A stretch of 64,000 nucleotides of DNA, taken from contig NZ_RJJD01000015.1 in assembly GCF_003721515.1 (NCBI RefSeq), positions 286,258-350,257 on the forward strand, read 5' to 3'. Position numbers and translations under genes: made by a program. Below, one piece after another: positions 1 through 18,557 of this stretch. This DNA is from Rufibacter latericius. GTDB taxonomy: Bacteria > Bacteroidota > Bacteroidia > Cytophagales > Hymenobacteraceae. The notes below the pieces were generated by a model. The model was given only the letters and a program-made list of their open reading frames with translations. It did no database searches and had not been told where the DNA came from. Each line of letters starts with the position of its first letter. Within the stretch, counting starts at the first letter, position 1.

Positions 1-153
1 ACCGCTAATCCTGCTTCCTCTTACATATTCTTTAACGATGATAGAATCAGGGAATTAGGATCTTTTTTTTTGCTTTATCACTTTGAATAGCAAAGCACTT
101 TTTCCTTAAATATTAGAGTAATAAAACCCTTGAAATATTAAAATATCAAGCAT

Positions 154-2093: not shown

Positions 2094-2996
2094 ATGAAAC
2101 TTCAGATTACCAATATCTCTAAAACCTACACTAATGGCGTTCAAGCCCTGAAAGACGTGACGCTCACCATTCCAAATGGCATGTACGGCCTGCTTGGTCC
2201 GAACGGGGCGGGAAAGTCCACGCTCATGCGCATTTTTGCTACCCTGCAGGAGCCGGATACGGGTAGCATCTTCCTGGGCGACATTGATGTGGTGAACCAA
2301 AAGGAAGAGGTGCGCAAGACGCTGGGCTACCTGCCGCAGGAGTTCGGGGTGTACCCCAAAGCCAGGGCCGAGGAGTTGCTGGGCTACTTCGCGGTGCTCA
2401 AGGGCATCACCGAACGGAAATCGCGCAAAGAAGTAGTAGAAGGTTTGCTGCGGCAAACGAACCTGTGGGATGTACGCCGTCAGAAACTAGGAGGCTTCTC
2501 TGGCGGCATGCGGCAGCGCTTCGGGGTGGCGGTGGCTTTGTTAGGCAACCCAAAACTTTTGATTGTAGACGAGCCCACCGCAGGACTGGACCCAGCAGAG
2601 CGAGTGCGTTTCCTGAACCTTTTAAGTGAACTAGGGGAAAACAGCGTGGTGCTACTTTCTACCCATATTGTAGAGGATGTCTCGGAGCTGTGCACCAACA
2701 TGGCCATCATCAACAAGGGCGAGATTCTTTTGGAGGCGCAGCCGCTGCAGGCTGTGGAGGCATTGAAAGGCACTATCTGGCGAAAACTGATTGAGAAGAA
2801 CACCCTCCCTACGCTGGAGCAGGACCACCAAGTCATCTCCACCAAGCTGCTGAGTGGGCGCACCCTGGTCCATGTCTACAGCCCTGAGTCGCCCGGCATC
2901 GGCTTTGAGCTGGTGGAGCCCGATTTGGAGGACGTGTATTTCAGCACCATGGCCGGTTTCTTCAGTGGCAAGCTACGGGAGGAGGCACGGCCATGA
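2094..2996 (+). CDS. ABC transporter ATP-binding protein
   Basis: A 300-aa ABC ATPase that powers the ABC-2 type permeases encoded just downstream. Walker A G-P-N-G-A-G-K-S at residues 35-42, the signature S-G-G-M-R-Q-R, Walker B L-L-I-V-D-E-P-T with the D-loop A-G-L-D, and the switch histidine in S-T-H-I-V are all intact. Length and the divergent C-terminal 80 residues fit the subfamily that pairs with ABC-2 permeases. The stop overlaps the start of the next gene by 4 nt (ATGA), so the three genes form a translationally coupled operon. Direction of transport and substrate are unknown. Confidence 0.95.
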   Translation: MKLQITNISKTYTNGVQALKDVTLTIPNGMYGLLGPNGAGKSTLMRIFATLQEPDTGSIFLGDIDVVNQKEEVRKTLGYLPQEFGVYPKARAEELLGYFAVLKGITERKSRKEVVEGLLRQTNLWDVRRQKLGGFSGGMRQRFGVAVALLGNPKLLIVDEPTAGLDPAERVRFLNLLSELGENSVVLLSTHIVEDVSELCTNMAIINKGEILLEAQPLQAVEALKGTIWRKLIEKNTLPTLEQDHQVISTKLLSGRTLVHVYSPESPGIGFELVEPDLEDVYFSTMAGFFSGKLREEARP

Positions 2997-5900
2997 AGTT
3001 CTGGAAGATTTTTAGCTTCGAGTTCGCCTACCAGATACGGCGTCCCTGGCCGTGGCTTGTCTTTGTGGTGCTCATCATCTTCGCCTTTTTCAATACAAGG
3101 GTAGGCATTTTGCCCGTCACGTTGCCCAAAGACTTCATCCTCAACTCGCCGTTCATCATCACCGCCGTGACGGTTTTCAGCTGTCAGATTTGGTTGCTGC
3201 TGGCTGCGGCGGTACCCGGCGAGGCATCGGCCCGTGATGTGCATACGCGCATGTATCCGCTGCTGTACACCAGTCCCATCAGTAGGGCCGAGTACTTGGG
3301 AGGGCGTTTCCTGGCCGCTTTTACCATCCATGCCATCATCCTTCTGGGTACGCAAGTGGGCAGCCTGCTCGCGGTCTACGCCCCCGGCATGAACCCCGAT
3401 ATCGTGGGTCCGTTCCGACCAGAGGCGTACCTGGCTGCCTATGGGTACATTGGACTTTCAAATGCTTTCATCGCCACGGTGGTCCAGTTCTCGCTAGCCC
3501 TCCTGAGCAGACGGCCCATGGTGGGCTACTTCGGTAGTCTGCTGCTCTTCTTTCTCTCCTATCCGGTGACGTTCACGCTGTACATGAATGGGTTGGGGAA
3601 ACGTGCCCTGATGGCTGACCCCATCGGGATTATGGCTATCATGAACGAAATGATGACCGAATGGACCATCGTGGAAAAGAACGTTCGCATGTTTACCCTG
3701 GAGGGAGCGATGCTGTGGAACCGGCTGCTGTGGCTGGGCATCGCGGTAGCGATGGGGGCATTCATTTATCTCCGCTTCCGCTTCGTGCACCATACCGGAG
3801 GATGGAGCTGGAAATGGAAATTCGGGAATAAAACCTCGAATGAGAAAAAGGAATCTGAACCGATTCGTCCCTTTCCATTGCCCACTCCTACCAACTCCTA
3901 CAGCTTTTCTACCCATCTGTGGCAGACGCTCGCGACCGCCCGAAGCTCGTTCTGGATGATTGTGACCAGCCCTGCCGGTTTGTTCCTGCTAGTCGTGTTT
4001 CCGGTAATGCTGACGCTGATAGTGCTGATTGAGCTGGAGCATTGGGGAATTCCGTTGCTGCCCCGTACCCCGCACCTCCTGACGAAACACCTCACGGGTA
4101 TCCTGACAACTCCCAGCAATTACTGGGTTATGGTGCCTCTTTTTACCGTCTACTTTGCGGGCGAACTGATTTGGCGCGAACGCGACGCGGGGCTGAACGA
4201 AAACATTGACGCAACGCCTGTACCCGAGTGGGTTCTTTTCGTGGGTAAGTTCATCGGGTTGGGGCTGGTGCTCGCACTCTTAATGGTCATCATTGCCCTT
4301 GTGGGAATCACGGTTCAGGTGGTCAACGGCTACTATGACTTCCAGATTGGCCGCTATCTACAAGTTCTACTTGGCTTTCAGCTTACTGATTATTTGCTTT
4401 TTGCGGCGCTCGCTTTCACGGTGCAGGTGGTAGTGAACCAAAAATATGTAGGCTACGTGCTGGCACTGGTGGCGTACTTCTGCATTATCTTCTCGTCTTT
4501 TATTGGCGTAGAGCACAACCTGCTCGTGTATGCGTCTGGCCCAGCGTGGTCCTTTACCGAGATGCGTGGCTTCGGCGGAACGGTGGGTCCCTGGCTTTGG
4601 CTGAGGCTGTACTGGTTTGCTTGGGCACTGCTGCTTGCACTAGTGGCACGTCTGTTCTGGATGAGAGGGCGTGAATCTGGTTCCCGCGTTCGGTTTCAAC
4701 TGGCTAAACGTCGCTTTACCCGTTCAAGCGTCGGAGTGGCGGTGGCAGCGGGCGTCCTGATTCTGACGTTGGGCAGCTTCATCTTCTACAACACCAATGT
4801 GCTCAATGAGCATCTCACAGATGAAGAGATGGTGCAGCGTCGTGCCGATTATGAGCGACTTTACGGAAAATACGAAGGAATCGCGCAGCCGCAACGCACG
4901 GCTACGAAACTGCAGATTGAGATTTATCCAGAGAAGAAAGCGGCAACCATCCGGGGCAGCTATCGCCTGGTGAACCGTGACGCGAAGCCGATTAAAGCCA
5001 TTCACGTGGAGCCGGCTTTCTATGTAGAAACCCGCATCACGTTTGACCATCCGGCCCGAGCCATGGTGACCGATGAAAAGCGCGGCCACTTCATCTATGC
5101 CCTGGACCAGCCGCTTCAGCCCGGCGACTCGCTGACGCTCAATTTTGACGTAAAATACGAAAGACGTGGTTTCCGGACCTCCAGTTCATCCCCTCTGGGA
5201 GGACCAAGAAGGAGCGGAGCGGGCACGGCGGTTCTGGAGAACGGCAGCTACTTTCCGGATGGTGCGTTGCCAGTCATCGGTTACCAACCCATGCGCGAGC
5301 TTTGGAGTGCCGAAGACCGGCGAAAGCAAGGCTTGCCGCGGCAGGTGACACTGGAGGCTCCGGGTGACATTGACCAAGGTATGGCCTCTGTTCCCGCCGC
5401 AACCTTTGAAGCAATCATCAGCACCGATGCCGGTCAGGTAGCCGTGGCACCGGGCGAGCTGCGCCGTACGTGGAGCAAAGAAGGCCGAAGCTACTTCCAT
5501 TACGTGAGCGACGTTCCCATCAACGGCACCGATGTTTTCTTCTCCGCTGATTACAAAGTGTACCGCGAAAAACGGAACCAGGTAGACCTCCAGCTCTTCC
5601 TTCACCCGGGACACACGAAGCACGCGGAACGGCTGCTGCGCAGTGCACGGGCGGCGCTGGACTACTACTCGGCGCAGTTTGGTCCGTACCCTTACCGCTA
5701 TCTGCAGATTGTGGAGCAGCCGGGCAATTTTATGGGCATGGGCGTAGACGGCAGCGGCGTGATTACGGGTGGCGAGGGCTTCTTCCTGCTGGACCCGCAG
5801 GGCGAGGGCTTTGATGCGATGTTCGAGATAGTGGCTCATGAGATGGGGCATCAGTGGTGGGGCATGCAGCTCAAACCTGCCTTTGCCGAAGGAGGAGGTG

Positions 5901-6598
5901 TCATCTCTGAAAGCCTGGCCTGGTACTCCGCGATGCAGCTCGTGAAAAAAGAAAAAGGACGAGAAGCGCTGAGGCGGTTCATGGCCTGGATGCGCGAACC
6001 GAACCCTTGGCCACCCATCCGCACCGGCCTACCGCTGCTCCGCGCCATGGACCCCTGGGCCAACTACCGAAAGGGTCCCTACGCCATGCACGCGCTGAGC
6101 GAGTATGCCGGCGAGGAGCGGGTGAACGTGGCGCTTCGTTCGCTGGTGCAAAAAAAGGCATCCTCCTTAGCTACCACCCTTGACATGTACCGTGAACTGC
6201 AAGTTGTTACGCCAGATTCGCTCAAGCCCATGCTGCACGACCTGTTTGAAACGAACACGTTCTGGACCTTTGATACAAAACAGGCATCGGTGAAGCAAAC
6301 GGGCAAAGGTGCCTGGCAGGTGACCTTAGAGGTGGACGCGCACAAAACAGTCTCCGATAGTGCCGGATATGAGAAGGAAGTGCCGGTGAACCAGTGGGTG
6401 GAAATCGGGTTGTTCGCGGCGGCTGAGCCCGGTGAAATTCTGGGCAAGCCGCTGTACGTGCAGAAGCACTTCATCCGGAAGGGCTTGCAAACCATTACCG
6501 TCACCTTGCCCTCCAAACCCGCCCGAGGCGGAATTGACCCCTACAACCTCCTGGACTGGGAGGAAGGAGACAACATTGAGAAAATCCAACCATTATGA
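2993..6598 (+). CDS. ABC-2 permease fused to M1-like metallopeptidase (first copy)
   Basis: A 1,201-aa fusion. Residues 1 to about 590 are a polytopic membrane region with two ABC-2-like blocks of transmembrane helices separated by a soluble linker; after one more helix (about 580-600) follows a domain with M1 peptidase character. The zinc site H-E-M-G-H is at residues 949-953, followed by W-W-G and by I-S-E-S-L as third ligand region; Y-R-K-G-P-Y downstream matches the catalytic tyrosine region. The GAMEN exopeptidase motif is not recognisable (G-N-F-M-G-M-G stands in its place), so aminopeptidase specificity is doubtful. Such fusions are annotated in Bacteroidota as permease/M1 aminopeptidase; function is not established. 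Starts within the ATPase stop codon. Confidence 0.9.
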   Translation: MKFWKIFSFEFAYQIRRPWPWLVFVVLIIFAFFNTRVGILPVTLPKDFILNSPFIITAVTVFSCQIWLLLAAAVPGEASARDVHTRMYPLLYTSPISRAEYLGGRFLAAFTIHAIILLGTQVGSLLAVYAPGMNPDIVGPFRPEAYLAAYGYIGLSNAFIATVVQFSLALLSRRPMVGYFGSLLLFFLSYPVTFTLYMNGLGKRALMADPIGIMAIMNEMMTEWTIVEKNVRMFTLEGAMLWNRLLWLGIAVAMGAFIYLRFRFVHHTGGWSWKWKFGNKTSNEKKESEPIRPFPLPTPTNSYSFSTHLWQTLATARSSFWMIVTSPAGLFLLVVFPVMLTLIVLIELEHWGIPLLPRTPHLLTKHLTGILTTPSNYWVMVPLFTVYFAGELIWRERDAGLNENIDATPVPEWVLFVGKFIGLGLVLALLMVIIALVGITVQVVNGYYDFQIGRYLQVLLGFQLTDYLLFAALAFTVQVVVNQKYVGYVLALVAYFCIIFSSFIGVEHNLLVYASGPAWSFTEMRGFGGTVGPWLWLRLYWFAWALLLALVARLFWMRGRESGSRVRFQLAKRRFTRSSVGVAVAAGVLILTLGSFIFYNTNVLNEHLTDEEMVQRRADYERLYGKYEGIAQPQRTATKLQIEIYPEKKAATIRGSYRLVNRDAKPIKAIHVEPAFYVETRITFDHPARAMVTDEKRGHFIYALDQPLQPGDSLTLNFDVKYERRGFRTSSSSPLGGPRRSGAGTAVLENGSYFPDGALPVIGYQPMRELWSAEDRRKQGLPRQVTLEAPGDIDQGMASVPAATFEAIISTDAGQVAVAPGELRRTWSKEGRSYFHYVSDVPINGTDVFFSADYKVYREKRNQVDLQLFLHPGHTKHAERLLRSARAALDYYSAQFGPYPYRYLQIVEQPGNFMGMGVDGSGVITGGEGFFLLDPQGEGFDAMFEIVAHEMGHQWWGMQLKPAFAEGGGVISESLAWYSAMQLVKKEKGREALRRFMAWMREPNPWPPIRTGLPLLRAMDPWANYRKGPYAMHALSEYAGEERVNVALRSLVQKKASSLATTLDMYRELQVVTPDSLKPMLHDLFETNTFWTFDTKQASVKQTGKGAWQVTLEVDAHKTVSDSAGYEKEVPVNQWVEIGLFAAAEPGEILGKPLYVQKHFIRKGLQTITVTLPSKPARGGIDPYNLLDWEEGDNIEKIQPL

Positions 6599-9500
6599 AG
6601 TTCAGAGGAATCTTTCGCTTTGAGTTTGCCTATCAGTTGCGCCATGTTTCCACTTGGCTGCTGTTTTCCGTGATGCTTCTGTTCGGGTTCCTCATCCTAA
6701 GGATGGTCACGCTGGAAGACGGAACCTACCTAAACGCCCCGGGTACCATCGCCTTCTTTACCATCTTCGGGAGCGTCATTTGGCTGGTGATTGGCGGGGT
6801 GATTGCCGGGGATGCCGCCACCCGCGATGTGCAGACGCGCATGCATCCGCTTACCTACACCACCCCGGTGAGCAAGGCGAGTTACCTGGGCGCGCGGTTC
6901 CTCTCGGCCCTCACCCTTAATGGCTTGATTCTGCTGCTGCTTTACGTTGGAATGCTCTTCTCCTTTTATGGGCCCGGCGCAAAGTCTGAGTTTATTGGTC
7001 CGTTCCGGCTTGCGTCTTATCTCACCAACTTCTGCTTCCTGGCCTTGCCTACGGTCATTGCTACTACCGCCATTCAGTTTAGTCTGGCTACGTTAAGCCG
7101 CAGGGCCATTGCCGGATATATCGCCAGCATTATCCTCGTCATTTTTTCCCAGTTCGCCGGGACTACTGTAAGGTTTGCCTTGGACTGGAAGGTAGTAGGT
7201 ACCCTGATGGACCTTTTGGGCACCAGCATTGCCACGGAAATGGAAGGCTGGACACCCATCGACAAGAATAACCGGCTGATTCTGCTGGAAGGCACCTGGC
7301 TCTGGAATCGTATGGCGTGGTTGAGCCTTGCCGCTGTGGCGCTTGCCTACACGTACTTCCGGTTCCGGTTAGCCCACGTGACAACCAGCGCCTCCTGTTG
7401 GAGTTTTTTCCGGCGAAGAAATGAAGCAGTGCAACCCGCTACTGAGTTAGCTTTACTGGGCGAACTCGCTCCCCGCACCAAGGACATCAGCCACATCAAA
7501 GTATTAAATACTAAACGTGTATTTAACTTCGCCTCCGATGTACGCCAGGCCCTTGCCATTGCGGGAACCTCGTTTCGCGTCATAGCCAAAAGCCGAGGCG
7601 GACTCACCTTGGTAGCAATTTTGGCCTTGGCCACCGGGCTGTTTGCGACCGAATACATGGAGTTTTTCGGCGTTCCGCTCTTCGCTCGGACGGAGGAAGT
7701 GTTGCGGATTTTAACCCCATCGCTGAGCAGTTTCAAAACCCAGTGGTTCATCATTCCCTTACTCACCATCTTCTTTGCCGGTGAGTTGGTCTGGCGCGAA
7801 CGCGAAGCCGGCATGAATGAGCTTTCAGACGCCACGCCGGTGCGGGGATGGGTTATGTTCCTCGGGAAATTCCTGGGGCTGGCGCTTATCATCGTCACGT
7901 GGCTAACTTTCCTGATGGTAGCTGGCATCATCAACCAACTCGTCATGGATTACCACAACTTTGAGCTCGGAGTCTATTTTAAGGTTCTTTTCGGAATTCA
8001 GCTCACAAACTACTTGCTCTTTGCCTTGCTCGTTTTTGCCATACACGTGGTGGTGAATCAGAAGTACATCGGGCACATGGTGGCCTTCTGCGCCTATGGG
8101 TACATTGTTTACTCCTCCATGCTTGGGGTAGAACATAACCTGCTGGTGTATGCCTCAGACACGGGGTGGTCTTATAGTGACATGCGCGGTTTCGGGCCGT
8201 TTATGAAGCCATGGCTGTGGTTTAAGTTCTACTGGGTAGCCTGGGCATTTCTCATTGCGGTCATAGCCACCCTGTTCTGGGCCCGCAGCAAAGAAGGAGG
8301 ATTCACCGCGCGGCTTCACCTGGCTAGGTACCGGTTCGCTCAGCACAAAGTGGCATTAGTGATAGCAGCAGTTCTGGTCCTAGGCTCCGGAGGTTTCATT
8401 TTCTACAACACGAACGTACTGAACACCTATGCCACCACCGACTACAGAAAGGAACTCCGCGCGGAGTACGAGCGGCGTTACGGGCAGTACGAACATACCG
8501 CGCAACCTGCCTTAACGCGTACTCGCCTGCACGTGGAAATTTATCCTGAAGAAGGCACTGCTGACATCAAGGGCACGTACGTTCTGGTGAACCGAAGCAA
8601 AGTGGCCATTGACTCTATTCACCTTTCCACCATTCCGCATGAGGGAGTCAAGGCCGTTACGTTTGATCGGGCAGCGTCCGCGGTGGTACTTGACACCAAA
8701 CACGGCTACCAGATTTATTCCCTGAAAAACAAACTTGAACCTGATGATTCTGTGCAGATGAATTTCAGAATACGCATTGAAAACCGGGGCTTCAGCAATG
8801 AGGGGGTAGATGCTTCCGTGGTCGCGAATGGGAGCCATATAGACAGCAATGACTGGATGCCGGTCATCGGGTACCAGGCAGATAGGCGCCTGCGCACTGG
8901 GCTTGACCGAGAGAAATATAGACTTGTTCCGCTTCCAGAAAGACCCTCGCTGACTGATTCAACCGCGCGCTATGATGCCCGTCATGCTCAGCTGATGGAC
9001 TTTGAAGCGGTGGTGGGTACCAGCAAAGACCAAATGGCGGTTGCGCCCGGTGCTCTGCAACGTACCTGGACGAATGGAGACCGCCGGTATTTTCACTATG
9101 TGGCAAATGCTCCCATTCACAACGAATACGCCTTCTTCTCTGCGAGATATGCCGTACGGGAAGCACAATGGAAGCCTGACTCTGCTCTTTTTGGGCATAC
9201 TTTGCAGAAAACGTCTCAAAAACGAGAATTGGCTGCGAAACCAGTTACCATCCAAATCTTTTATCATCCTGCGCATAACGCCAACGTGGAGCGGATGGTG
9301 AAAAGCGCCAAGGCATCGCTGGAGTATTATTCAAAGGTATTCGGGCCGTATCCTTACAGCCATTTCCGGGTTTTGGAACGACCAGGAGCCGGTCGGGGGA
9401 TGCACGCGGAGCCTATGACGATTGACTACCAAGAAGGGTATTCACTGATGAAACCGGACGGCCTGGACATTCCTTATCATATTATGGCCCACGAAATGGC

Positions 9501-10254
9501 GCACCAGTGGTGGGGCTTCCAGCTTGCTCCTGCGTCGGTGGAAGGTGCGGGATTGCTCGTGGAAAGCTTTGCGACGTACTCGGCTATGCAAGTGGTGGAG
9601 GAAACCTTGGGCTACGCGCATCTGCTTAAGTATCTTTCCCAGATGCGACAGGAGTATGAAGTTCCCCGCTCCCGTGCGGCTCCGCCTTTGCTCCGCTCAA
9701 ACAACGCGTTCATGAACTACCGGAAGGGACCGTTCGCGCTCTTTGCGCTGCGGCATTACATCGGGAAAGATGCTGTCAACCAAGCCATGAGGCAGTTGCT
9801 GGAAAAGCATGCTTCGGGAGAACCTCCATTGCCTACCACCCAGGACTTCTACCGGGAGCTGAAGGCAGTGACACCAGACTCGCTCCAATATCTGCTGCAT
9901 GACCTCTTTGCGACGAATACGTTTTGGGAACTGGAAACGGAACGGGTTGCTGCGAAACAGACAACTACAGGCTGGCAGGTGACACTAAATGTAACCGCAC
10001 GGAAGGTAGTAGTAGACGAAACGGGAGTGGAAACAAATGTGCCGATGAAGGATTGGATTGAGGTGGGAATCTTTGAGCAGGGTAAGAAGCCAGACAAGCT
10101 GCTTTATTTGCAGAAGCATCGCCTGCGCTCTGGTCAGCAGACTATCACCGTGATGGTGCCCCGTAAACCTTCTCGGGCCGGTATTGACCCAAACCATCTG
10201 CTGATAGACTTGGATATGGAAGATAACACGAATAAGGTGGAGATTCAGTACTAA
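6595..10254 (+). CDS. ABC-2 permease fused to M1-like metallopeptidase (second copy)
   Basis: A 1,219-aa paralogue of the preceding gene with the same order: membrane helices, soluble linker, second helix block, then an extracytoplasmic peptidase-like domain. Zinc motif H-E-M-A-H is at residues 966-970, again followed by W-W-G, a downstream V-E-S-F glutamate and Y-R-K-G-P-F near the end. The GAMEN motif is replaced by G-A-G-R-G-M-H. Both copies share phrases throughout (for example F-Y-N-T-N-V-L-N just after the last helix), so they arose by tandem duplication and probably form a heterodimer with the ATPase. Overlaps the previous gene by 4 nt. The zinc ligands are intact in both copies, so both peptidase domains may be active. 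Confidence 0.9.
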   Translation: MKFRGIFRFEFAYQLRHVSTWLLFSVMLLFGFLILRMVTLEDGTYLNAPGTIAFFTIFGSVIWLVIGGVIAGDAATRDVQTRMHPLTYTTPVSKASYLGARFLSALTLNGLILLLLYVGMLFSFYGPGAKSEFIGPFRLASYLTNFCFLALPTVIATTAIQFSLATLSRRAIAGYIASIILVIFSQFAGTTVRFALDWKVVGTLMDLLGTSIATEMEGWTPIDKNNRLILLEGTWLWNRMAWLSLAAVALAYTYFRFRLAHVTTSASCWSFFRRRNEAVQPATELALLGELAPRTKDISHIKVLNTKRVFNFASDVRQALAIAGTSFRVIAKSRGGLTLVAILALATGLFATEYMEFFGVPLFARTEEVLRILTPSLSSFKTQWFIIPLLTIFFAGELVWREREAGMNELSDATPVRGWVMFLGKFLGLALIIVTWLTFLMVAGIINQLVMDYHNFELGVYFKVLFGIQLTNYLLFALLVFAIHVVVNQKYIGHMVAFCAYGYIVYSSMLGVEHNLLVYASDTGWSYSDMRGFGPFMKPWLWFKFYWVAWAFLIAVIATLFWARSKEGGFTARLHLARYRFAQHKVALVIAAVLVLGSGGFIFYNTNVLNTYATTDYRKELRAEYERRYGQYEHTAQPALTRTRLHVEIYPEEGTADIKGTYVLVNRSKVAIDSIHLSTIPHEGVKAVTFDRAASAVVLDTKHGYQIYSLKNKLEPDDSVQMNFRIRIENRGFSNEGVDASVVANGSHIDSNDWMPVIGYQADRRLRTGLDREKYRLVPLPERPSLTDSTARYDARHAQLMDFEAVVGTSKDQMAVAPGALQRTWTNGDRRYFHYVANAPIHNEYAFFSARYAVREAQWKPDSALFGHTLQKTSQKRELAAKPVTIQIFYHPAHNANVERMVKSAKASLEYYSKVFGPYPYSHFRVLERPGAGRGMHAEPMTIDYQEGYSLMKPDGLDIPYHIMAHEMAHQWWGFQLAPASVEGAGLLVESFATYSAMQVVEETLGYAHLLKYLSQMRQEYEVPRSRAAPPLLRSNNAFMNYRKGPFALFALRHYIGKDAVNQAMRQLLEKHASGEPPLPTTQDFYRELKAVTPDSLQYLLHDLFATNTFWELETERVAAKQTTTGWQVTLNVTARKVVVDETGVETNVPMKDWIEVGIFEQGKKPDKLLYLQKHRLRSGQQTITVMVPRKPSRAGIDPNHLLIDLDMEDNTNKVEIQY

Positions 10255-10521: not shown

Positions 10522-10539
10522 GGTAGCGGGAACAGGACT
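10522..10539. repeat. attL: 18-bp tRNA-fMet 3'-end duplicate
   Basis: Identical to 18483-18500 inside the intact tRNA gene. The bases to its right (10540 on) depart from tRNA sequence at once, so this is a recombination scar and not a tRNA gene. Confidence 0.92.
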
Positions 10540-10697: not shown

Positions 10698-10748
10698 AAA
10701 ATAGTTAAGAAAACCTTCTGCCACTTGTAAGCACTCAATTTACCTTTG
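10698..10748 (+). promoter_or_regulatory. Element promoter P1 (integrase)
   Basis: CTTCNNNCACTTGTAAG (CACTTGTAAG at 10722-10731) followed by the -7-like box TACCTTTG at 10741-10748, with 13 nt between the TTG and the box. Matching blocks precede two other genes of the element. The box ends 28 nt before the integrase ATG. Confidence 0.6.
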
Positions 10749-10776: not shown

Positions 10777-12039
10777 ATGAAAGAAAAAGCCGTAAGCTTC
10801 TTTTTGAAAGACAGCACAAATGACAAGTCAAAAGTAGAAACGTTAATACTTGCTAGCTTTTCCTACCACCGGAGAAGGCTAAAGATAACCTCTGAATTAA
10901 GTATTGCCCCAAACAACTGGGATAAGAAGACAAAACTTCCAAAAAAGAGCTTCATGAACTACATGGAGTATAAAGTGAAGCTTGGAAATAGGGAAAGTGA
11001 GATTCTTGAATCCTATAATTTCTTTATTGACAAAGGCATTATTCCTGAACCACAGACTTTGAAGGCACACATACTAAGCAAAAAGAACCTTAGACATGAG
11101 GCAGAAATTTTGGACTTCAAGGAAAGGTATGAAGAGTTCTTGGAAGAGAAGGCTCTTGACGTAAAGGAACTCACACTAAAGAAATACAAGACTCTCATTT
11201 TGTTGATTAAAGAATTTGAGAAAAAGCACAACGTCACTGTTCGTTTTGAAACCATAGACACAAACTTTGAGAAACGCTTTAAGAACTTTCTTACAGGCGC
11301 CAAAAAGCAGTTAAATGACACAGTGAGCAAATACATGGAGTGCCTGAAAGTCTATTTGGATTGGACATTAAAAAAAGAGTATCACAATACCACAATTTTC
11401 AAAGGATTTAAAACCCCTAAAACCAAACCCAAGGTGGTTTACTTGACTTATGAAGAACTCATAAAGTTATTAGACTTGGATTTAGAGGGAAATGAAAGAT
11501 TAGCCAAGGTTCGTGACACGTTTTGTTTCCAATGCCTTACAGGACAACGGTTCTCGGATTTGATGGCCTTACGGTGGCATGAACTGTTGAAAAATGAAAC
11601 AGGTGAATTGGAGTGGCACCTATTCCAACAGAAGGGAAACAAGCCAAGGAAACTGGAAATACTTATTACCCCAGATGCACTTAATATTCTGTCAAGACAT
11701 ACTTCTACAAACAAGAAGGACTTCGTGTTTGATAGAATAACCAATCAAAAGTTCAACCTGTATTTAAAGGAGTTGGGTCAGCTTGCAGGAATAAATGAGC
11801 ACGTTGTAGACAGAAGATACTGTGGCAAAGAAGCTGTTTTAAAGTCTGGCCCAAAATACGAGTTCATGACTAGCCATACGGCAAGAAGAACTTATGTAAC
11901 CATATCCCACCAGAGAGGGATGGATGAAAAGGCAATAATGGACACCACAGGACATGAAGATTTACGAACACTACATAGGTATTTGGGAAGCAATAAAGAA
12001 CGCACACACTCCCAAATGCATAATGCATGGACTAGGTAA
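10777..12039 (+). CDS. Tyrosine recombinase (integrase) of the element
   Basis: A 420-aa integrase of the Bacteroidota phage-integrase type, with an N-terminal arm-binding region, a SAM-like core-binding domain (about residues 105-215) and a C-terminal catalytic domain. Catalytic residues are readable: Arg in T-G-Q-R-F-S-D-L, His and Arg in S-H-T-A-R-R-T, the second His in T-G-H-E-D, and the nucleophile Tyr in H-R-Y-L. It should catalyse site-specific recombination at the tRNA-fMet 3' end, where its gene sits close to attL. A shared element promoter lies upstream and a strong hairpin terminator just after the stop. Intact, so the element may still be able to excise. Confidence 0.95.
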   Translation: MKEKAVSFFLKDSTNDKSKVETLILASFSYHRRRLKITSELSIAPNNWDKKTKLPKKSFMNYMEYKVKLGNRESEILESYNFFIDKGIIPEPQTLKAHILSKKNLRHEAEILDFKERYEEFLEEKALDVKELTLKKYKTLILLIKEFEKKHNVTVRFETIDTNFEKRFKNFLTGAKKQLNDTVSKYMECLKVYLDWTLKKEYHNTTIFKGFKTPKTKPKVVYLTYEELIKLLDLDLEGNERLAKVRDTFCFQCLTGQRFSDLMALRWHELLKNETGELEWHLFQQKGNKPRKLEILITPDALNILSRHTSTNKKDFVFDRITNQKFNLYLKELGQLAGINEHVVDRRYCGKEAVLKSGPKYEFMTSHTARRTYVTISHQRGMDEKAIMDTTGHEDLRTLHRYLGSNKERTHSQMHNAWTR

Positions 12040-12083: not shown

Positions 12084-12134
12084 AAAATACCTTTTGATTC
12101 CTTCTTTCACTTGTAAGCAAGCAACTTATCTTTG
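12084..12134 (+). promoter_or_regulatory. Element promoter P2 (HTH gene)
   Basis: Same layout as the integrase promoter: AAAATA, then CTTCTTTCACTTGTAAG with CACTTGTAAG at 12108-12117, then TATCTTTG at 12127-12134, again 13 nt after the TTG. It ends 83 nt before the HTH gene start. Confidence 0.6.
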
Positions 12135-12217: not shown

Positions 12218-12508
12218 ATGACAACAAATGTGCAGTTGGGAAATCAATTAGGCCAAATTTTAGCGCAAGGTGCTAGTGCCGATATTGAGCTAATGATTTA
12301 TTCCTGCTTTTCTAAAATAAATGACAAATTAAATGCTAACGAGGAAATAATGAAACCGGAAGAGGTTTGTGATTTTCTAAAAGTTTCAATGCCCACTTTA
12401 AATAACTTAGTAAAGAGTGGAAATTTTAATAGTTACGATTTTAAGAATGCTAAAGGCATCTACTATAAGCGTAGTGAAATAATTCAAGCACTTAGAAAGA
12501 GAGAATAA
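12218..12508 (+). CDS. Small HTH protein, excisionase-like
   Basis: A 96-aa protein. Its C-terminal half, from M-K-P-E-E-V-C-D-F-L-K-V through Y-Y-K-R-S-E-I-I, reads as a MerR/excisionase-type winged helix-turn-helix with a recognition segment around S-M-P-T-L-N-N-L-V-K-S-G. The N-terminal 45 residues are not recognised. Placed directly after the integrase and carrying the same promoter block, it is the natural candidate for the directionality factor or for the regulator that binds the CACTTGTAAG boxes. A large bidirectional terminator follows. HTH fold: confident; exact role: inferred. Confidence 0.8.
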   Translation: MTTNVQLGNQLGQILAQGASADIELMIYSCFSKINDKLNANEEIMKPEEVCDFLKVSMPTLNNLVKSGNFNSYDFKNAKGIYYKRSEIIQALRKRE

Positions 12509-12664: not shown

Positions 12665-13267
12665 CTATTTCTTAATAATAACGTTGTGTTTAGCTTTTCC
12701 ATATTTTCGTGCAAAGTATAAGTGATCACCTCCTCTTATATATTCATACCCATATTTTATAATACCTGCTTCTGTAAGATAGTTTTCATAGTTCAGGGTT
12801 TTATCTTTAAACTCACATTCAAGTGATATGGGCCTATTTATTTTTGTCCAAATTGCCCCATTACCTGAGAAGTGTTCTGCCATTCTTCTACTCATATTTT
12901 GAGTAAACCCAACATAAAAACAATTATTTTCCAGTTTTAGAACATAAACACTCCCTTTTGATAAATCACTGGAAATAAAACTAGGCCCTAAAGTTTTTGA
13001 AAACTTGGTTATAATGAAATCTAAGGCAATTTTAAATTTTAAATTTTCAAAAACCATTATAAAATTTATAGGACCCCCTCCTTTGCCGCATGTAAAACAT
13101 TTGCATATGTTTTTCCTTATAGAAACCATAAACCCAGTTTTTGACTTGCAAATTGGACATACACCAATCAAATCTCTACCCTTCTCTGTTAAATTAGTAT
13201 AGGGAGAAACAAGGTCTAATATGGAGAACTCTTTTTGAATTATATCTATAGTTTCTTTAATATTCAT
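12665..13267 (-). CDS. DnaG-type CHC2-like zinc finger fused to GIY-YIG domain
   Basis: A 200-aa two-domain protein. Residues 1 to about 90 look like the zinc-binding domain of DnaG primase: C-P-I-C, a beta-hairpin, then C-F-T-C-G-K-G-G followed by I-N-F-I-M. The usual CPxH is CPxC here, giving a four-cysteine site. Residues from about 103 form a GIY-YIG domain: V-Y-V-L-K-L-E and F-Y-V-G-F-T-Q, the conserved Arg in S-R-R-M-A-E-H, W-T-K and a late Y-I-R-G-G-D. Neither primase palm (TOPRIM) nor helicase is attached. Together with the polymerase-like gene next door it may act in element replication or end processing; that role is inference. Confidence 0.82.
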   Translation of the reverse strand: MNIKETIDIIQKEFSILDLVSPYTNLTEKGRDLIGVCPICKSKTGFMVSIRKNICKCFTCGKGGGPINFIMVFENLKFKIALDFIITKFSKTLGPSFISSDLSKGSVYVLKLENNCFYVGFTQNMSRRMAEHFSGNGAIWTKINRPISLECEFKDKTLNYENYLTEAGIIKYGYEYIRGGDHLYFARKYGKAKHNVIIKK

Positions 13268-13299: not shown

Positions 13300-13892
13300 G
13301 CGCTATAAATTATTGTTAATTTTTCTTTTCTATGTTCACCTTAAAATTAATAAAGGTAGCTATTTGCCCCTAAACCATAACTAGCTACTTTCAAGCCTAA
13401 AAACCTTGCTTCTAGGGTGAACACCCTTTAACCACTAGCCTTACTTTAGCCAATTAGACTAATAGTTGAAAGCCATAAAGACCTTTAACCGTTAGGCACC
13501 ATTTTATAAATGGGTATACATGAATATTTACGCCAAAGCCATATACCTTAAATAATTTAAATTTAAAATCACTGGTCAAACCCCTATTTTCAACAAGGCA
13601 TGGATATGCCCTTTTAAGCTGTGATATTGCTTTTCTAAAATAATCTAAATGTTTTAGGCAGGGACCTACGCGCTATATCTACACTTAAACGCACTAGATT
13701 ATGATCTTTCTAGCGAACTGGCTCACATTTACATGCAAAAATAAACCTAAGATGAATAGCTTTAAACTTATCTAAAATAGGCTTTAAAAACGGCCTTTCT
13801 ACTGTCTAAATGGCATGGAAACATACAGCACTTACTCCTTCTTAAAGCTTCTAATCACTAAGGGAAAGCGAGACACTTACCATTTAGCTAAA
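13300..13892. other. Gene-free AT-rich region of the element
   Basis: No plausible ORF. It holds short imperfect repeats (two CCTTTAACC...TAGC-like blocks near 13430 and 13480, and two GTAGCTA/CTAGCTA blocks near 13355 and 13380), a small GGGTGAACACCC inverted repeat near 13417, and one arm of a 22-bp inverted repeat at 13548-13569. Sitting between the zinc-finger/nuclease and polymerase-like genes, it could be a replication origin or control region, but nothing seen proves that. Confidence 0.4.
13548..13569. repeat. 22-bp inverted repeat, arm 1
   Basis: This AT-only-rich 22-mer is the exact reverse complement of 16480-16501. The two arms bracket the polymerase-like gene and the hypothetical at 16012-16479. 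Confidence 0.75.
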
Positions 13893-13899
13893 TCTCTGA

Positions 13900-13950
13900 A
13901 AAATACCTTTCAAAAGCTTCCGTCACTTGTAAGTGGTGGGGTTATCTTTA
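13900..13950 (+). promoter_or_regulatory. Element promoter P3 (polymerase-like gene)
   Basis: AAAATA, then CTTCCGTCACTTGTAAG (CACTTGTAAG at 13924-13933), then TATCTTTA at 13943-13950, exactly 13 nt after the TTG as in P1 and P2. It ends 40 nt before the gene start. Confidence 0.6.
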
Positions 13951-13990: not shown

Positions 13991-15661
13991 TTGAAAAAGA
14001 ACGTTTCAGAACCATTGGTAGCTATACCGGAGAATTTCAATATTAAAGAGTTCACAGCAAAGCACAGTACAAAAGACATAAAACATTTTAAGGAAGACAT
14101 TCTATATTATTTTATTAGTCTTATCACCTCTGTCCCATCCCAGGACTTTGACCTAATTATGGAAAGTGGCCACGTACGTCTTTCCTCTACCCTGTTGCAG
14201 GGTATTGCGCACAACTACCTACAGTACATAGACTATATGAAGGAGCATGGCGTGATAGACCGCATAGAGCAGTACCAGAAGGCCGGTATGCAGACCATGA
14301 GGGAAGGCAAGATGGTGTCACTGGAAGGCAAGTGCATGGGCTACCGCTTCACTTCAAAGTACCAGACAAGGGTAAAGTATGTGCCACTTACAGATAAGAA
14401 GTTCATCAAACGTCTTTCCCGAAAGGCAGACTTCAAGACGGACGGGAAGGACGTTTACCCCTTCCTTCACCGGTGGCTCAAAGACCCTAGACTAAACATT
14501 GACATAGAGGGCGCGGAAAGGTTCTTTAGGGAATATCTGGGAATAGAGGGGAATTCCTACCCAGAGCCAAACGCATGGATGAAGTTCAATTCCTACATGC
14601 ACCCATTAAGGATGCTAAAAGAGGGAACCGGCAATTTCACCTTCACCATAGACGAAACCGGCAGAAGACTGCACACGCCCTTCACCTTCATGAAGCGCGA
14701 GGCCAAGCAGTTCATCACGTGGGGAAAAGACAAGAGGAAGCTTGTGAGCCTAGACATAAAGAACTCACAACCCTATCTTCTACTGGGGCTTTTAAGTGGT
14801 AGCCTGTACGGTCTGGACGCGGAGTTTAACGAATCGTTAAATAATTTAAGGACCACAAGGGTGGAAAGTCCTTCGCTTGCCGACCAAAAGTTAAATTTAA
14901 AATCATTCAATTCCTCTGCACAAGGGCTTCTGAACAGAATTTCTATGGATAACAGTACTCACTCTTCTAAAAGAACTTTCTCTAAGCCTGTGCCTATGTC
15001 CTTTAATTACCCTTTCTCCCTTAAATGTCTTCATAATGACTACCTAAGCATTATAGAGCATATCTTTCTAAGAAGTTCTTCATCCATGTCTTCCAACATA
15101 TCTTCTTCCATAATGTTAGTAGATATGTTCTGTAATGACATTGAAAACATTGATTCAAGCTTACCAGAGGATATTTTAAGGTACAGGCAGGGGGTCACAA
15201 GTGGCACCTTTTATCTAAACTTAAAGCAGAGGTTTGAAGAGGAACTTGGGGTAAGCTATGATAGTGTGAGAGACTTCAAGGCAGACCTTTTGGCCGTGTT
15301 TTATTCAAAGATAAACGGCGGTGCCTACATTAACGAGAGGAAGAAGGTGTTTGCCAAGTATTACCCAACGGTAGTGGCCTTTCTGGACTTGTTGAAGGGC
15401 AAGAACTTCCTAGGGGAGAAAAGCTATACCCTTCCGGTGATACTTTTACAGCGCCTGGAAGCGCACATGATGCTTGACAGGATTGGCAAGCGCATTGCGT
15501 CACTGAACGCCAACTGCCCTATGTTCTTCATCCATGATAACCTCGTGGTTCTGGAAGGGTACGAGGCCTTCGCAGAAGCCATAATCAAAGAGGAAATGGA
15601 AAGGTGCATAGGCATTGCCCCTCTGGTGGCGGTGGAGCCGTGGGCAAGCAAAGCGGCTTAA
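13991..15661 (+). CDS. Divergent family-A-polymerase-like protein of the element
   Basis: A 556-aa protein read from a TTG start with GTAAGGGA shortly before it. Three motifs match the order and character of the family A DNA polymerase/T7 RNA polymerase palm: motif A L-D-I-K-N-S-Q-P (Asp255), motif B R-x2-K-x7-Y (Arg427, Lys430, Tyr438; the K-x7-Y spacing equals PolA), followed by Y-Y-P-T-V as in the PolA Y-P-x-V segment, and motif C F-F-I-H-D-N (His515, Asp516). A Ser-rich AT-rich stretch (about residues 278-395) lies between A and B. No exonuclease domain is visible; the N-terminal 240 residues are unrecognised. Most likely a replication protein of the element; catalytic activity is inference. 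Confidence 0.72.
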   Translation: MKKNVSEPLVAIPENFNIKEFTAKHSTKDIKHFKEDILYYFISLITSVPSQDFDLIMESGHVRLSSTLLQGIAHNYLQYIDYMKEHGVIDRIEQYQKAGMQTMREGKMVSLEGKCMGYRFTSKYQTRVKYVPLTDKKFIKRLSRKADFKTDGKDVYPFLHRWLKDPRLNIDIEGAERFFREYLGIEGNSYPEPNAWMKFNSYMHPLRMLKEGTGNFTFTIDETGRRLHTPFTFMKREAKQFITWGKDKRKLVSLDIKNSQPYLLLGLLSGSLYGLDAEFNESLNNLRTTRVESPSLADQKLNLKSFNSSAQGLLNRISMDNSTHSSKRTFSKPVPMSFNYPFSLKCLHNDYLSIIEHIFLRSSSSMSSNISSSIMLVDMFCNDIENIDSSLPEDILRYRQGVTSGTFYLNLKQRFEEELGVSYDSVRDFKADLLAVFYSKINGGAYINERKKVFAKYYPTVVAFLDLLKGKNFLGEKSYTLPVILLQRLEAHMMLDRIGKRIASLNANCPMFFIHDNLVVLEGYEAFAEAIIKEEMERCIGIAPLVAVEPWASKAA

Positions 15662-16011: not shown

Positions 16012-16479
16012 CTAGAACTGCGAAAGCACCCAACCGCTTTTCTTGGAAATGTAGGCTACCCCGTCTTCCAATTCAAGCTGGATCTTGTCGGGCGACGTGT
16101 CCGGATTCTTCTTTGGGGTTGCCTGCATGAACAGGGATTCAGAATTCATCTTTTCACTAAGACGCTTCTCTGCCTGTGTCATTTCACCCCCGTTCATGAA
16201 ATAATATGCCCTGCACATGTCCACCACCTCTTCCACGAACTCCGCATAGGTGTACAGTTCCTCATGCCCTCTGTAGTAGCCCTCTAAGTAAAGGCCTTCC
16301 ACGTCCAGAAGGAACTCTTTACTGAACCGGTTGCGGCACCATTGTAGCCACTGCTCTTCTGGGTAAAACCTAATCCGGCTGTCACACCAGTAGATTGCAC
16401 CCTGCATTTCCGGGGATTGCCCCTCTGCAATCATTTCCTTGAACCTCTTCATGGGCGGCGGTGTAGAACGTCTTTCCAT
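16012..16479 (-). CDS. Hypothetical protein, 155 aa
   Basis: Not recognised. The protein is acidic and rich in aromatic residues (several Trp and Tyr between residues 28 and 95), with no signal peptide or membrane segment, and has a predicted helical middle (E-E-V-V-D-M-C-R-A-Y-Y-F). It begins 14 nt after the serine recombinase stop, so the two are probably co-transcribed and it may be an accessory factor of that recombinase. The ATG is preceded by one arm of the 22-bp inverted repeat at 16480-16501. Codon use resembles that of its element neighbours. Confidence 0.65.
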   Translation of the reverse strand: MERRSTPPPMKRFKEMIAEGQSPEMQGAIYWCDSRIRFYPEEQWLQWCRNRFSKEFLLDVEGLYLEGYYRGHEELYTYAEFVEEVVDMCRAYYFMNGGEMTQAEKRLSEKMNSESLFMQATPKKNPDTSPDKIQLELEDGVAYISKKSGWVLSQF

Positions 16480-16501
16480 ATTTTAAATTTAAATTATTTA
16501 A
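16480..16501. repeat. 22-bp inverted repeat, arm 2
   Basis: Exact reverse complement of 13548-13569. It overlaps the end of the serine recombinase gene and the short gap before the next start. Confidence 0.75.
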
Positions 16502-17195
16502 CGGATTGGATTAGCTGCTTCGTCTCGGCTTCAATTCTGGAAGTCCTAGTGTAAAGCTTGTGTACTGAACTTAGGCCAAACTTCTTGCCCCTGCTTGTAA
16601 GGTAGCCTAGTTCATTCAGCTTGCTAACGATCTGGGGGAAGGATTTGCCCTCTGCCCTTGCGCTTAGGATTAGGTGTACGGCTTGTTTGTTTTCCTTGCT
16701 GTTGGCGGCGTTGGATTGGCGTACTTTTAGACCTTGCAGCCTTGCCTCTTCTGTAAGATTTGCAGGTGTTCCCAATATATGGCCTTGGGCTTTCTTGGCG
16801 TTCAGCGCAGCCTTTGTGCGGCTACTAATTAATTCCCTTTCATGTTGGGCAAGCACGGCAAAAATACCTATTGTCAAGGTGTTGGCGTCGGGCATGTCTG
16901 CGCAGACGAATTCTACTCCGGAATCTTTCAGGGCGAAGATGAAGGAAGCGTTTCTGCTTAGTCTGTCAAGTTTGGCAATCACTAAAACAGAGCCTGTAGT
17001 CTTGGCATGAGAAATAGCCAACATAAGCTGTGGCCTAGCATCCCTTTTACCAGATTCAATCTCTGTGTACTCTAAAACTACACAGGTATCACATTTCAGA
17101 AAGGCCTTTACCGCCATCTTCTGGGCATCTAAGCCTAATCCGCTTAGGCCTTGCTTTTGGGTACTTACCCTATAATATGCCACGTATGTTTTCAT
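16494..17195 (-). CDS. Serine recombinase (resolvase/invertase family)
   Basis: A 233-aa small serine recombinase. The catalytic Ser lies in Y-Y-R-V-S-T-Q-K-Q near residue 11; conserved arginines follow in L-D-R-L-S-R and E-R-E-L-I-S-S-R-T. The N-terminal catalytic domain (1 to about 140) leads into a long helix and a C-terminal helix-turn-helix around residues 170-220. It could resolve multimers of a circular form or invert DNA; no obvious res site was identified. A second recombinase beside the tyrosine integrase is unusual for so small an element and would suit one with a replicating circular stage. Its promoter is of the ordinary Bacteroidota type, unlike P1-P3. Confidence 0.92.
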   Translation of the reverse strand: MKTYVAYYRVSTQKQGLSGLGLDAQKMAVKAFLKCDTCVVLEYTEIESGKRDARPQLMLAISHAKTTGSVLVIAKLDRLSRNASFIFALKDSGVEFVCADMPDANTLTIGIFAVLAQHERELISSRTKAALNAKKAQGHILGTPANLTEEARLQGLKVRQSNAANSKENKQAVHLILSARAEGKSFPQIVSKLNELGYLTSRGKKFGLSSVHKLYTRTSRIEAETKQLIQSVK

Positions 17196-17302: not shown

Positions 17303-18271
17303 TTAGTTATTCTTTAATTTTTCAATCCAAGCTATGGCCTTGTTGATTGCTTCTAAATTGAATAAATAATCTGCACCGTCCATTGGGTCAAATGACATTG
17401 AGTCACCTTCCCCAATCATCATTATGTTATCAACAATATCTTCAAATGGCTTGGTGGGGAAGGGAAGTGCAACGCCAAATCTTCTAATCTTAGAATTGGT
17501 CTTTAAGGGGAAGATGGGATAAACACTTTCAAGCCCTTTTTTGATAGAGAAATGAACACCTTCATGCTGTTCCAGAAAGGTTGATTGTTCAGTCCAGAAC
17601 TCTTCTGGATACACATTTAAGCTTGGGTTTAAAAGCTGTTCCCGCACCTTATTGTAAACACTGTCAAGAATAAAGGTATAACCAAATTTTGCAAATGTTA
17701 GAATATAGGCTGTTTTCAACAAGGCAATACCAAATACCCTTTTTTCAACTCTAGATTTTTTGCGGATTAAATTAACAATGCCGCCAAAACTCTCATCCTT
17801 CAAGGAGGCAATATAATCTTCTAAGACCTGTGGGTTGTTATACCTTTTATCATGAGTTATCTTGATTTCACCATTACTCTCTACCTTGACATAACCAGTT
17901 ACCGTTTTTCCTTCATTTTCCATAGTCACCTTTTGAGTTGTATATGGCAGAAACTCACTAGCATCTAGTTCTCGCAACCTATCGGATAAATGGAAATCAA
18001 CTTCATGCCCACAAGTATTGTTGCAACTTTTGCAAGTCAAAGCTATTTGGCTACCACCCAAAGATTTGGGAGGGGCATCTTCCAAAGTAAGCCTATTTCT
18101 AGATTTCTCTTCAAGTGCTTGTTCTGGAAAATGCTCCAAGCAAATAGGGCAGATGTATGTCTTAGGAAACTGTAATTCTAAATCTGGAAGAAAACCATTT
18201 GATTTGAGAAAATTAAGGTGACTAGAAAACCTATCAAAAAGTAATTTTCTCTTGTTGTCGTTTCTACTCAT
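17303..18271 (-). CDS. HNH endonuclease-domain protein
   Basis: A 322-aa protein with an N-terminal zinc/HNH-like module: C-P-I-C near residue 42, then L-T-L-E-D-A-P-P, S-L-G-G, and a second cysteine pair in L-T-C-K-S-C-N-N followed by G-H-E-V-D. This E-D-x-P-P...L-T-C-x-x-C-N-N pattern is a recognised HNH-like nuclease variant. The remaining 220 residues are unrecognised and largely charged. It sits at the right end of the element next to attR, the usual place for accessory cargo, so a defence or exclusion role is plausible but unproven. Confidence 0.75.
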   Translation of the reverse strand: MSRNDNKRKLLFDRFSSHLNFLKSNGFLPDLELQFPKTYICPICLEHFPEQALEEKSRNRLTLEDAPPKSLGGSQIALTCKSCNNTCGHEVDFHLSDRLRELDASEFLPYTTQKVTMENEGKTVTGYVKVESNGEIKITHDKRYNNPQVLEDYIASLKDESFGGIVNLIRKKSRVEKRVFGIALLKTAYILTFAKFGYTFILDSVYNKVREQLLNPSLNVYPEEFWTEQSTFLEQHEGVHFSIKKGLESVYPIFPLKTNSKIRRFGVALPFPTKPFEDIVDNIMMIGEGDSMSFDPMDGADYLFNLEAINKAIAWIEKLKNN

Positions 18272-18470: not shown

Positions 18471-18484
18471 ATCTTACTATTGGG

Positions 18485-18557
<73 letters not shown>

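Follow-up and report, generated by a model that had tools for sequence, protein, structure and literature searches.

A predicted TV-Pol-like minimal family-A polymerase encoded on a tRNA-Met-integrated element of Rufibacter latericius

TV-Pol proteins were described in 2008 by Iyer, Abhiman and Aravind as element-borne PolA-like enzymes of 400–600 aa encoded beside resolvases or integrases, Bacteroidetes included, and a role as primase plus polymerase was proposed for them from gene context (PMC2579912). The divPolA2 proteins of phages were described in 2024 (Yutin et al., PMC11348598), with a repair or RNA polymerase role suggested by their authors, and priming of DNA synthesis has been shown for CcPol, a PolA-like protein with a single-stranded DNA-binding protein (SSB) as partner (PMC7581432, PMC10061031); when the CcPol work appeared in 2020, its authors stated that they knew of no biochemical characterisation of any other proposed TV-Pol (PMC7581432). 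In this study, a 64,000-nt stretch of the Rufibacter latericius genome (contig NZ_RJJD01000015.1, positions 286,258 to 350,257; hereafter the window) was analysed for a 556-aa protein encoded on an element integrated at a tRNA-Met gene. The family-A polymerase fold and kinship of this protein are very likely, and our preferred reading, held with moderate confidence, is that it is a TV-Pol-like minimal family-A polymerase without nuclease domains that would start DNA synthesis on the excised circle of the element.

Single-sequence searches with the polymerase gave no meaningful match in Pfam, PHROGs or NCBIfam, and only weak chance matches, mostly antibody chains, among PDB sequences, where a search with the A2 profile returned three weak unrelated matches. 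The DNA polymerase I model PF00476 matched neither the window protein at E 10 nor any of 34 family members at E 1, and no Pfam model covers the family (window protein and the same 34 members). In a Foldseek structure search, the modelled palm region matched family-A polymerases, and the model places D255 at a strand end and H515-D516 in a beta-hairpin turn. The preliminary description of this DNA had made its proposal depend on a palm domain in which D255 and D516 lie close together; the predicted model bears this out in part, in its family-A-like palm and in where D255 and H515-D516 sit in the fold. The 556-aa reading frame, the lack of an exonuclease domain (no nuclease or exonuclease model matched the window protein in the Pfam scan) and the family-A fold, supported by the structure-model match together with the motifs, also stood as first described. 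An AAGGG ends 3 nt ahead of the TTG at 13991, and the exact start is therefore uncertain. Ahead of the palm, the structure models predict a winged helix that looks like a DNA-binding head and may resemble those of replication initiators.

The catalytic motifs lie where they had been reported (D255 in LDIKNSQP, R427-x2-K430-x7-Y438, and FIHDN with D516). Conservation was assessed across 46 distinct full-length sequences, namely the window protein, two at 72–78% identity to it and the rest at 18–28%. D255, S259, Q260, P261, Y408, K430, E490 and D516 are invariant in 46/46, so that the motifs are not due to chance, and D255 and D516 are the only Asp listed as invariant. Near-invariant positions are F454, P459 and Q487 (45 each), H515 (42) and R226, the conserved hairpin Arg ahead of motif A (45/46). 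Eight residues after K430 the family has F in 34, Y in 10 and another residue in 2, and four residues before it R in 36, K in 4 and another residue in 6; the family norm is thus R-x3-K, and the R-x2-K of the earlier account, although present in the window, is an exception within the family (R-x2-K in L028 and K-x2-K in L029, the closest relatives; L, G and C numbers are our labels for loci, genomes and contigs). The dN/dS ratio of the window gene is about 0.14 against L028 and about 0.16 against L029; the palm strip of residues 195–275 has the lowest dN (0.027 and 0.077, respectively), and the serine-rich insert (residues 281–385) is looser than this strip in the same comparisons. Bridging forms of motif A occur in L163 (DMRNCHY) and in L149 of the R. 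latericius genome (DIKTCQP).

Kinship was evaluated by profile–profile comparison with hhalign, using a TV-Pol-like set of four proteins (MAP_030 of Microcystis phage Ma-LMM01, two from Polaromonas plasmids, and one from a Calothrix plasmid, the last cut at the record end). From its motifs and neighbouring transposases, MAP_030 is probably the Ma-LMM01 TV-Pol published in 2008. All four share a motif A of the form D-x3-[CS]-[QH] and the fingers Lys, with Y, Y, N and M at the +8 residue, and the three complete proteins have L[LI]QxxE and HDG. The family matched this set at E 4e-6 (46 sequences), 1.6e-4 (34) and 0.0096 (15), and its strongest profile match was to divPolA2 (E 7.6e-13); TV-Pol matched divPolA2 at 2.1e-4 and housekeeping PolA at 3.4e-4, and divPolA2 matched PolA at 0.003, with a decoy at 0.35. 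Against PolA the family by itself is weakly above decoy, since its E value of 0.019 compares with 0.12–0.66 for integrase decoys (0.12 PolA, 0.53 TV-Pol, 0.66 family), and global-mode alignment of the two gave nothing useful. A super-profile of 57 sequences (46 family, 7 divPolA2, 4 TV-Pol) matched PolA at E 3.9e-6, with a decoy at 0.69. A maximum-likelihood tree with long branches, built from 232 core columns and with PolA as its root, recovered the family as one clade (ultrafast bootstrap 71), grouped it with the TV-Pol set as its sister (96) and left divPolA2 outside as its own clade (100). Identity of the family with divPolA2 is therefore rejected by this tree despite the strongest profile match. 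Searches with hmmsearch and family profiles missed MAP_030 in three of the four Ma-LMM01 pieces (MAP_030 at E 0.26 and 3.7; the best ORF, at E 0.02, was another protein), and its kinship was detected by profile–profile comparison alone. A Polaromonas TV-Pol-like query found no match in 198 genomes of the phylum, in a search without a positive control.

The idea of an unrecognised polymerase branch is not supported as first worded, TV-Pol having been known since 2008 and divPolA2 since 2024; the window family forms a clade of its own alongside them. We did not meet this clade in the literature searched, which was covered mostly at title and abstract level and lay outside subscription journals and the 2008 supplement, and a term search of PMC12926913 found no TV-Pol or CcPol.

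The motif A spelling D-x3-S-Q, instead of the D-x-S-Q of PolA, had suggested an insertion. In the super-profile alignment, LDIKNSQPYLL runs ungapped against ADYSQIELRIM from D255 = D705 onward, so that S259-Q260 pairs with PolA I709-E710, not with S707-Q708, and Gln260 occupies the Glu710 place. This place holds Gln in 46/46 family members, H, H, H and Q in the TV-Pol set, W, H, E, H, E, H and H in divPolA2, and Glu in 8/8 PolA sequences. T7 RNA polymerase has Gly here. The place of F762 (residue 434) holds Tyr or Phe in 35/46 members and Leu in the window protein; Glu710 and F762 are named in the CcPol paper as residues discriminating against ribonucleotides (PMC7581432). Gln at the steric gate thus predicts an altered sugar choice, judging from the aligned residue, rather than being evidence for one.

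The gene lies on an element of 7,961 bp (repeat start to start) bounded by an 18-bp direct repeat whose right copy is the 3' end of tRNA-Met, and the GC fraction per 500-bp step is 0.30–0.49 inside it versus 0.47–0.56 in flanking steps. Residence on a tRNA-integrated element was thus confirmed, and the Pfam scan found no Rep or helicase model among seven element proteins (the polymerase and six neighbours), small ORFs being outside the scan. The element of L188 has counterparts of the integrase (73% identity), HTH protein (41%), polymerase (84%), 155-aa protein (68%) and serine recombinase (87%), and no match to the zinc-ribbon/GIY-YIG and HNH genes; the five shared genes therefore form the element core. 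At the window's tRNA-Met site, five of eight genus-mate stretches have one repeat copy and three have two. Of the two-copy sites, L188 and L192 (the same locus as L029) carry polymerase-bearing elements, and L191 (G399) carries a 3.7-kb insert (5944–9600) that matches the window element over only about 190 bp, at the left end. Since the window's left flanking gene was found in L191 only, the single-copy sites are no more than candidates for the exact ancestral junction; the single-copy stretch L185 reaches about 1 kb beyond the repeat.

Repeats of a tRNA end also enclose polymerase homologues in L029, L146/L147, L152 and L160, and tRNA genes are present in 10/22 scanned loci. The tRNA-Met-bounded stretch on R. 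latericius contig C14 (L146:6480 to L147:12617) spans 26 kb and holds four homologues, of which one is broken, another is divided between two frames and a third lacks catalytic residues. An intact 553-aa paralogue on this contig (L146:14499-16160; C14 about 320.5 kb) has neither the motif A Asp, the fingers Lys nor the HD motif, and from its sequence is seemingly a catalytically dead member kept as an open frame.

Two kinds of box precede the polymerase gene (Table 1). The inverted pair of the 21-bp AT-rich box was matched in 0/100 shuffles; exact copies of the box also stand upstream of a homologue in L029 and L148, in L147 at a distance of about 1.6 kb, and in L188 at 437 nt. The homologue behind the box is split between frames in both L147 and L148. 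In L028 the inverted pair is degenerate, with nearly equal spacing. The 27-bp box is confined to its three sites in the 64 kb at two mismatches (0/100 shuffles), and its TAnnTTTG-like stretch fits the Bacteroidetes housekeeping promoter. A search for iterons in and before the polymerase gene found, besides the AT-rich box, short scattered repeats alone.

Table 1. Coordinates of features in the window; residue numbers refer to the 556-aa protein
Feature	Position	Strand	Remarks
TV-Pol-like family-A polymerase-fold protein	13991..15661	+	TTG start, 556 aa
N-terminal winged helix (predicted)	residues about 9-132		limits are the author's reading of structure models
Thumb-like helices and hairpin (predicted)	residues about 136-245		limits are the author's reading of structure models
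Palm/fingers (predicted)	residues about 250-554		limits are the author's reading of structure models
Motif A, D255-I-K-N-S-Q260-P261	14753..14773	+	within LDIKNSQP; Q260 aligns with PolA Glu710 (steric gate)
Variable serine-rich insert	14831..15145	+	residues 281-385; mostly low model confidence; missing from compact viral members
Fingers motif, R427-x2-K430-x7-Y438	15269..15304	+	family norm R-x3-K-x7-[YF]
Q487-x2-E490 (LLQxxE)	15449..15460	+	aligns with IQGTAAD segment of PolA
Motif C, H515-D516-N517	15533..15541	+	within FIHDN
Attachment repeat, left copy	10522..10539	.	18 bp, GGTAGCGGGAACAGGACT
Attachment repeat, right copy	18483..18500	.	18 bp, 3' end of tRNA-Met
tRNA-Met (cat)	18483..18557	-	integration target
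27-bp box before integrase	10722-10748		upstream of integrase gene
Tyrosine integrase	10777..12039	+	PF00589, PF13102
27-bp box before helix-turn-helix (HTH) gene	12108-12134		upstream of HTH gene
HTH_17 excisionase-like protein	12218..12508	+	domain match
DnaG-type CHC2 zinc ribbon fused to GIY-YIG nuclease domain	12665..13267	-	variable cargo; no match in G402 element
21-bp AT-rich box	13548..13568	+	TTAAATAATTTAAATTTAAAA; 443 nt upstream of polymerase gene; exact in five elements
Promoter-like 27-bp box before polymerase gene	13924..13950	+	CACTTGTAAG-N8-TTAYCTTTR
155-aa protein of unknown function	16012..16479	-	matched near polymerase in L028, L148, L188
Exact inverted copy of 21-bp box	16481..16501	-	sequence identity
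Serine recombinase (resolvase)	16494..17195	-	Pfam scan
HNH endonuclease-like protein	17303..18271	-	PF14279, E 9e-6, below curated cut-off; variable cargo

Among the neighbouring genes, the 155-aa protein had no family match below E 0.1, and the zinc-ribbon/GIY-YIG protein had no TOPRIM match. The DnaG zinc-ribbon gene was considered as a fixed priming partner and rejected, having no match in the G402 element or other compared loci. Left of the element, two adjacent 1,200-aa proteins (2993-6598 and 6595-10254) each appear by eye to join a membrane transporter half to an M1-type metallopeptidase half.

The R. latericius genome holds 12 homologue matches, fragments counted. A 15-sequence profile matched 17/395 sampled genomes of the phylum and 18/39 relatives, R. 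latericius included in both counts, the latter comprising 11/15 genus-mates. Two Rufibacter roseus loci encode proteins with 78% and 72% identity to the window protein, and a homologue on a Hymenobacter qilianensis plasmid, the one annotated close member examined, is labelled 'hypothetical protein'. Profile search found 42 IMG/VR viral loci (longest contig 597 kb), for which the profile was needed, single-protein scans returning 0 viral loci and 2 loci in genome contigs; a 400-aa viral member used as query matched six uncultured phage records of 595–735 kb. A 730-aa member in G088 (L011:523-2712) has an extra C-terminal tail that by eye is GIY-YIG homing endonuclease-like.

Across 24 loci, clusters of tyrosine integrases were found in 13, of serine recombinases in 9, and one or both in 17 (raw counts with no background rate, taken anywhere within stretches of 11–35 kb or, for the window, the 8.5-kb element region). 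An AAA_24-type cluster occurs in 4/24, and DUF3871 and C5-methylase clusters in 3 each, as named from a Pfam run on one representative of each cluster. An AAA_24-type ATPase followed by a DUF3871-type protein stands near the polymerase at L150:11622-13521, L152:7149-9006 and L156:14979-17208, and this pair is possibly a replication or recombination module. In the viral loci (n = 42), clusters of 477-aa and 194-aa proteins, with representatives lacking a confident family match, each adjoin the gene in 19 (L066, L043, L063 and other large viral contigs), and ORFs judged head-protein-like by their representative lie near viral homologues: in 11 loci, a 66–71-aa ORF has a representative matching part of a major head protein family.

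In our preferred reading, the element most likely excises as a circle through the tyrosine integrase and the HTH/Xis-like protein, and the polymerase would start and/or carry out the first DNA synthesis on this circle as a primase-polymerase. Its N-terminal winged helix would bring it to element DNA, perhaps to the 21-bp AT-rich box, and the remaining replication would fall to the helicase and replisome of the host. We observe the predicted fold, the catalytic residues and their conservation, the element borders, the one- and two-copy site states in genus-mates, the upstream boxes and the recombinase linkage; from these we infer that the protein is catalytically active, primes and binds DNA, which sugar it uses, that the element excises, and with all this the replicative role. 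A stronger version, which we put forward only tentatively, is a self-contained initiator-primase-polymerase, in which the predicted initiator-type winged helix acts on the 21-bp AT-rich box and the changed ribonucleotide gate lets the enzyme prime small tRNA-integrated elements with RNA or with mixed primers. If true, this would add a primase type distinct from DnaG and AEP that does without the SSB partner needed by CcPol-MP. With members on elements, on a plasmid and on viral contigs of very large size, the clade is a compact and widespread test case with two predictions: the sugar gate is changed at a single aligned residue, and the N-terminal domain has a specific site on the DNA. Should both be true, small bacterial elements carry a one-protein replication start built on the PolA fold.

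Among the alternatives, it is unlikely, though worth weighing, that the protein is a primer-dependent repair polymerase that closes the gaps arising when the element integrates, excises or is transferred, and neither primes nor replicates it. The linkage to recombinases would suit such an enzyme, two plasmids with such genes have their own annotated Rep, and repair was considered for divPolA2 by its authors (PMC11348598); gap-filling needs neither a DNA-binding head nor a conserved upstream box, however, and a housekeeping PolA exists in the same genome. We find it improbable that the protein is a single-subunit T7-like RNA polymerase reading element promoters such as the CACTTGTAAG boxes, a role also considered for divPolA2 (PMC11348598). 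The replacement of the steric-gate Glu by Gln in 46/46 members and the common boxes upstream of the integrase, HTH and polymerase genes point this way, and human and yeast mitochondrial RNA polymerases appear in the Foldseek list, at ranks 48–50; DNA polymerase structures rank above them, though. The window protein is also far smaller than T7 RNA polymerase, and the TAnnTTTG-like stretch of the boxes fits the housekeeping promoter of Bacteroidetes.

Still less probable is a cargo polymerase that acts in defence or abortive infection, as defence reverse transcriptases do. Some members are followed after 4 nt by a SIR2-domain gene (L031), or have an HsdM gene (L030) or a C5 methylase (three loci) nearby, and TV-Pol neighbourhoods with restriction-modification operons are reported in PMC2579912; yet the genes common to window-type elements are the integrase, HTH, 155-aa protein and serine recombinase, and PADLOC models matched 2/15 scanned members (DpdF at E 0.04, and a homing-endonuclease model at E 3e-7 whose match most likely reflects the 730-aa member with its GIY-YIG-like tail). 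A non-catalytic DNA-binding regulator or structural protein retaining the polymerase fold, for which the 553-aa C14 paralogue offers a precedent, is very improbable here, given that the window protein, like 45 others, retains both Asp and the fingers Lys, and that the palm strip is its most constrained part.

Compared with known systems, the window family shares with housekeeping DNA polymerase I (PF00476) the fold, D705/D882, K-x7-Y, the IQGTAAD region and a TGRLSS-like hairpin, and differs from it in lacking a nuclease domain model and a PF00476 match and in having Gln at the steric gate. CcPol-MP of SCC elements (PolA-SSB primase) likewise has a PolA fold and is encoded on an element that also carries a serine recombinase (PMC7581432, PMC10061031); it is close to housekeeping Pol I, keeps the steric-gate Glu (E174) and has an SSB partner and a helicase, whereas the window family has Gln at the gate, and the scan of seven element proteins revealed neither a helicase nor a recognised SSB. 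PHROG phrog_4756, which carries no known function, matched 2/34 members, with residues 279–506 of L031 at E 1.7e-7. The divPolA2 proteins (421–461 aa, n = 7) also combine palm/fingers with a separate N-terminal globular domain and no exonuclease; their motif A lacks NSQP (DYSQLWP, DYTALHP, DIDRIHP and others), and they come mainly from Rheinheimera, Vibrio and Aeromonas phages.

From TV-Pol, as represented by the four proteins compared here, the window family differs as a separate clade of 46 with motif A D-x3-SQP. In the 2008 paper the N-domain of a TV-Pol subset is predicted to be all-helical (PMC2579912), whereas the window N-domain models as a winged helix, and no D5 helicase was matched on the window element. 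A conserved Asp in the fingers is a further TV-Pol feature; the Asp listed as invariant in the window family are D255 and D516. The RxxxK of the TV-Pol fingers is found in 36/46 family members and not in the window protein (R-x2-K), which, for this reason and its tree placement, we call TV-Pol-like rather than a TV-Pol member. TV-Pol and the window family have in common a length of 400–600 aa, a PolA palm with two Asp, the upstream hairpin Arg, freedom from nuclease domains, residence on resolvase/integrase elements and members in Bacteroidetes.
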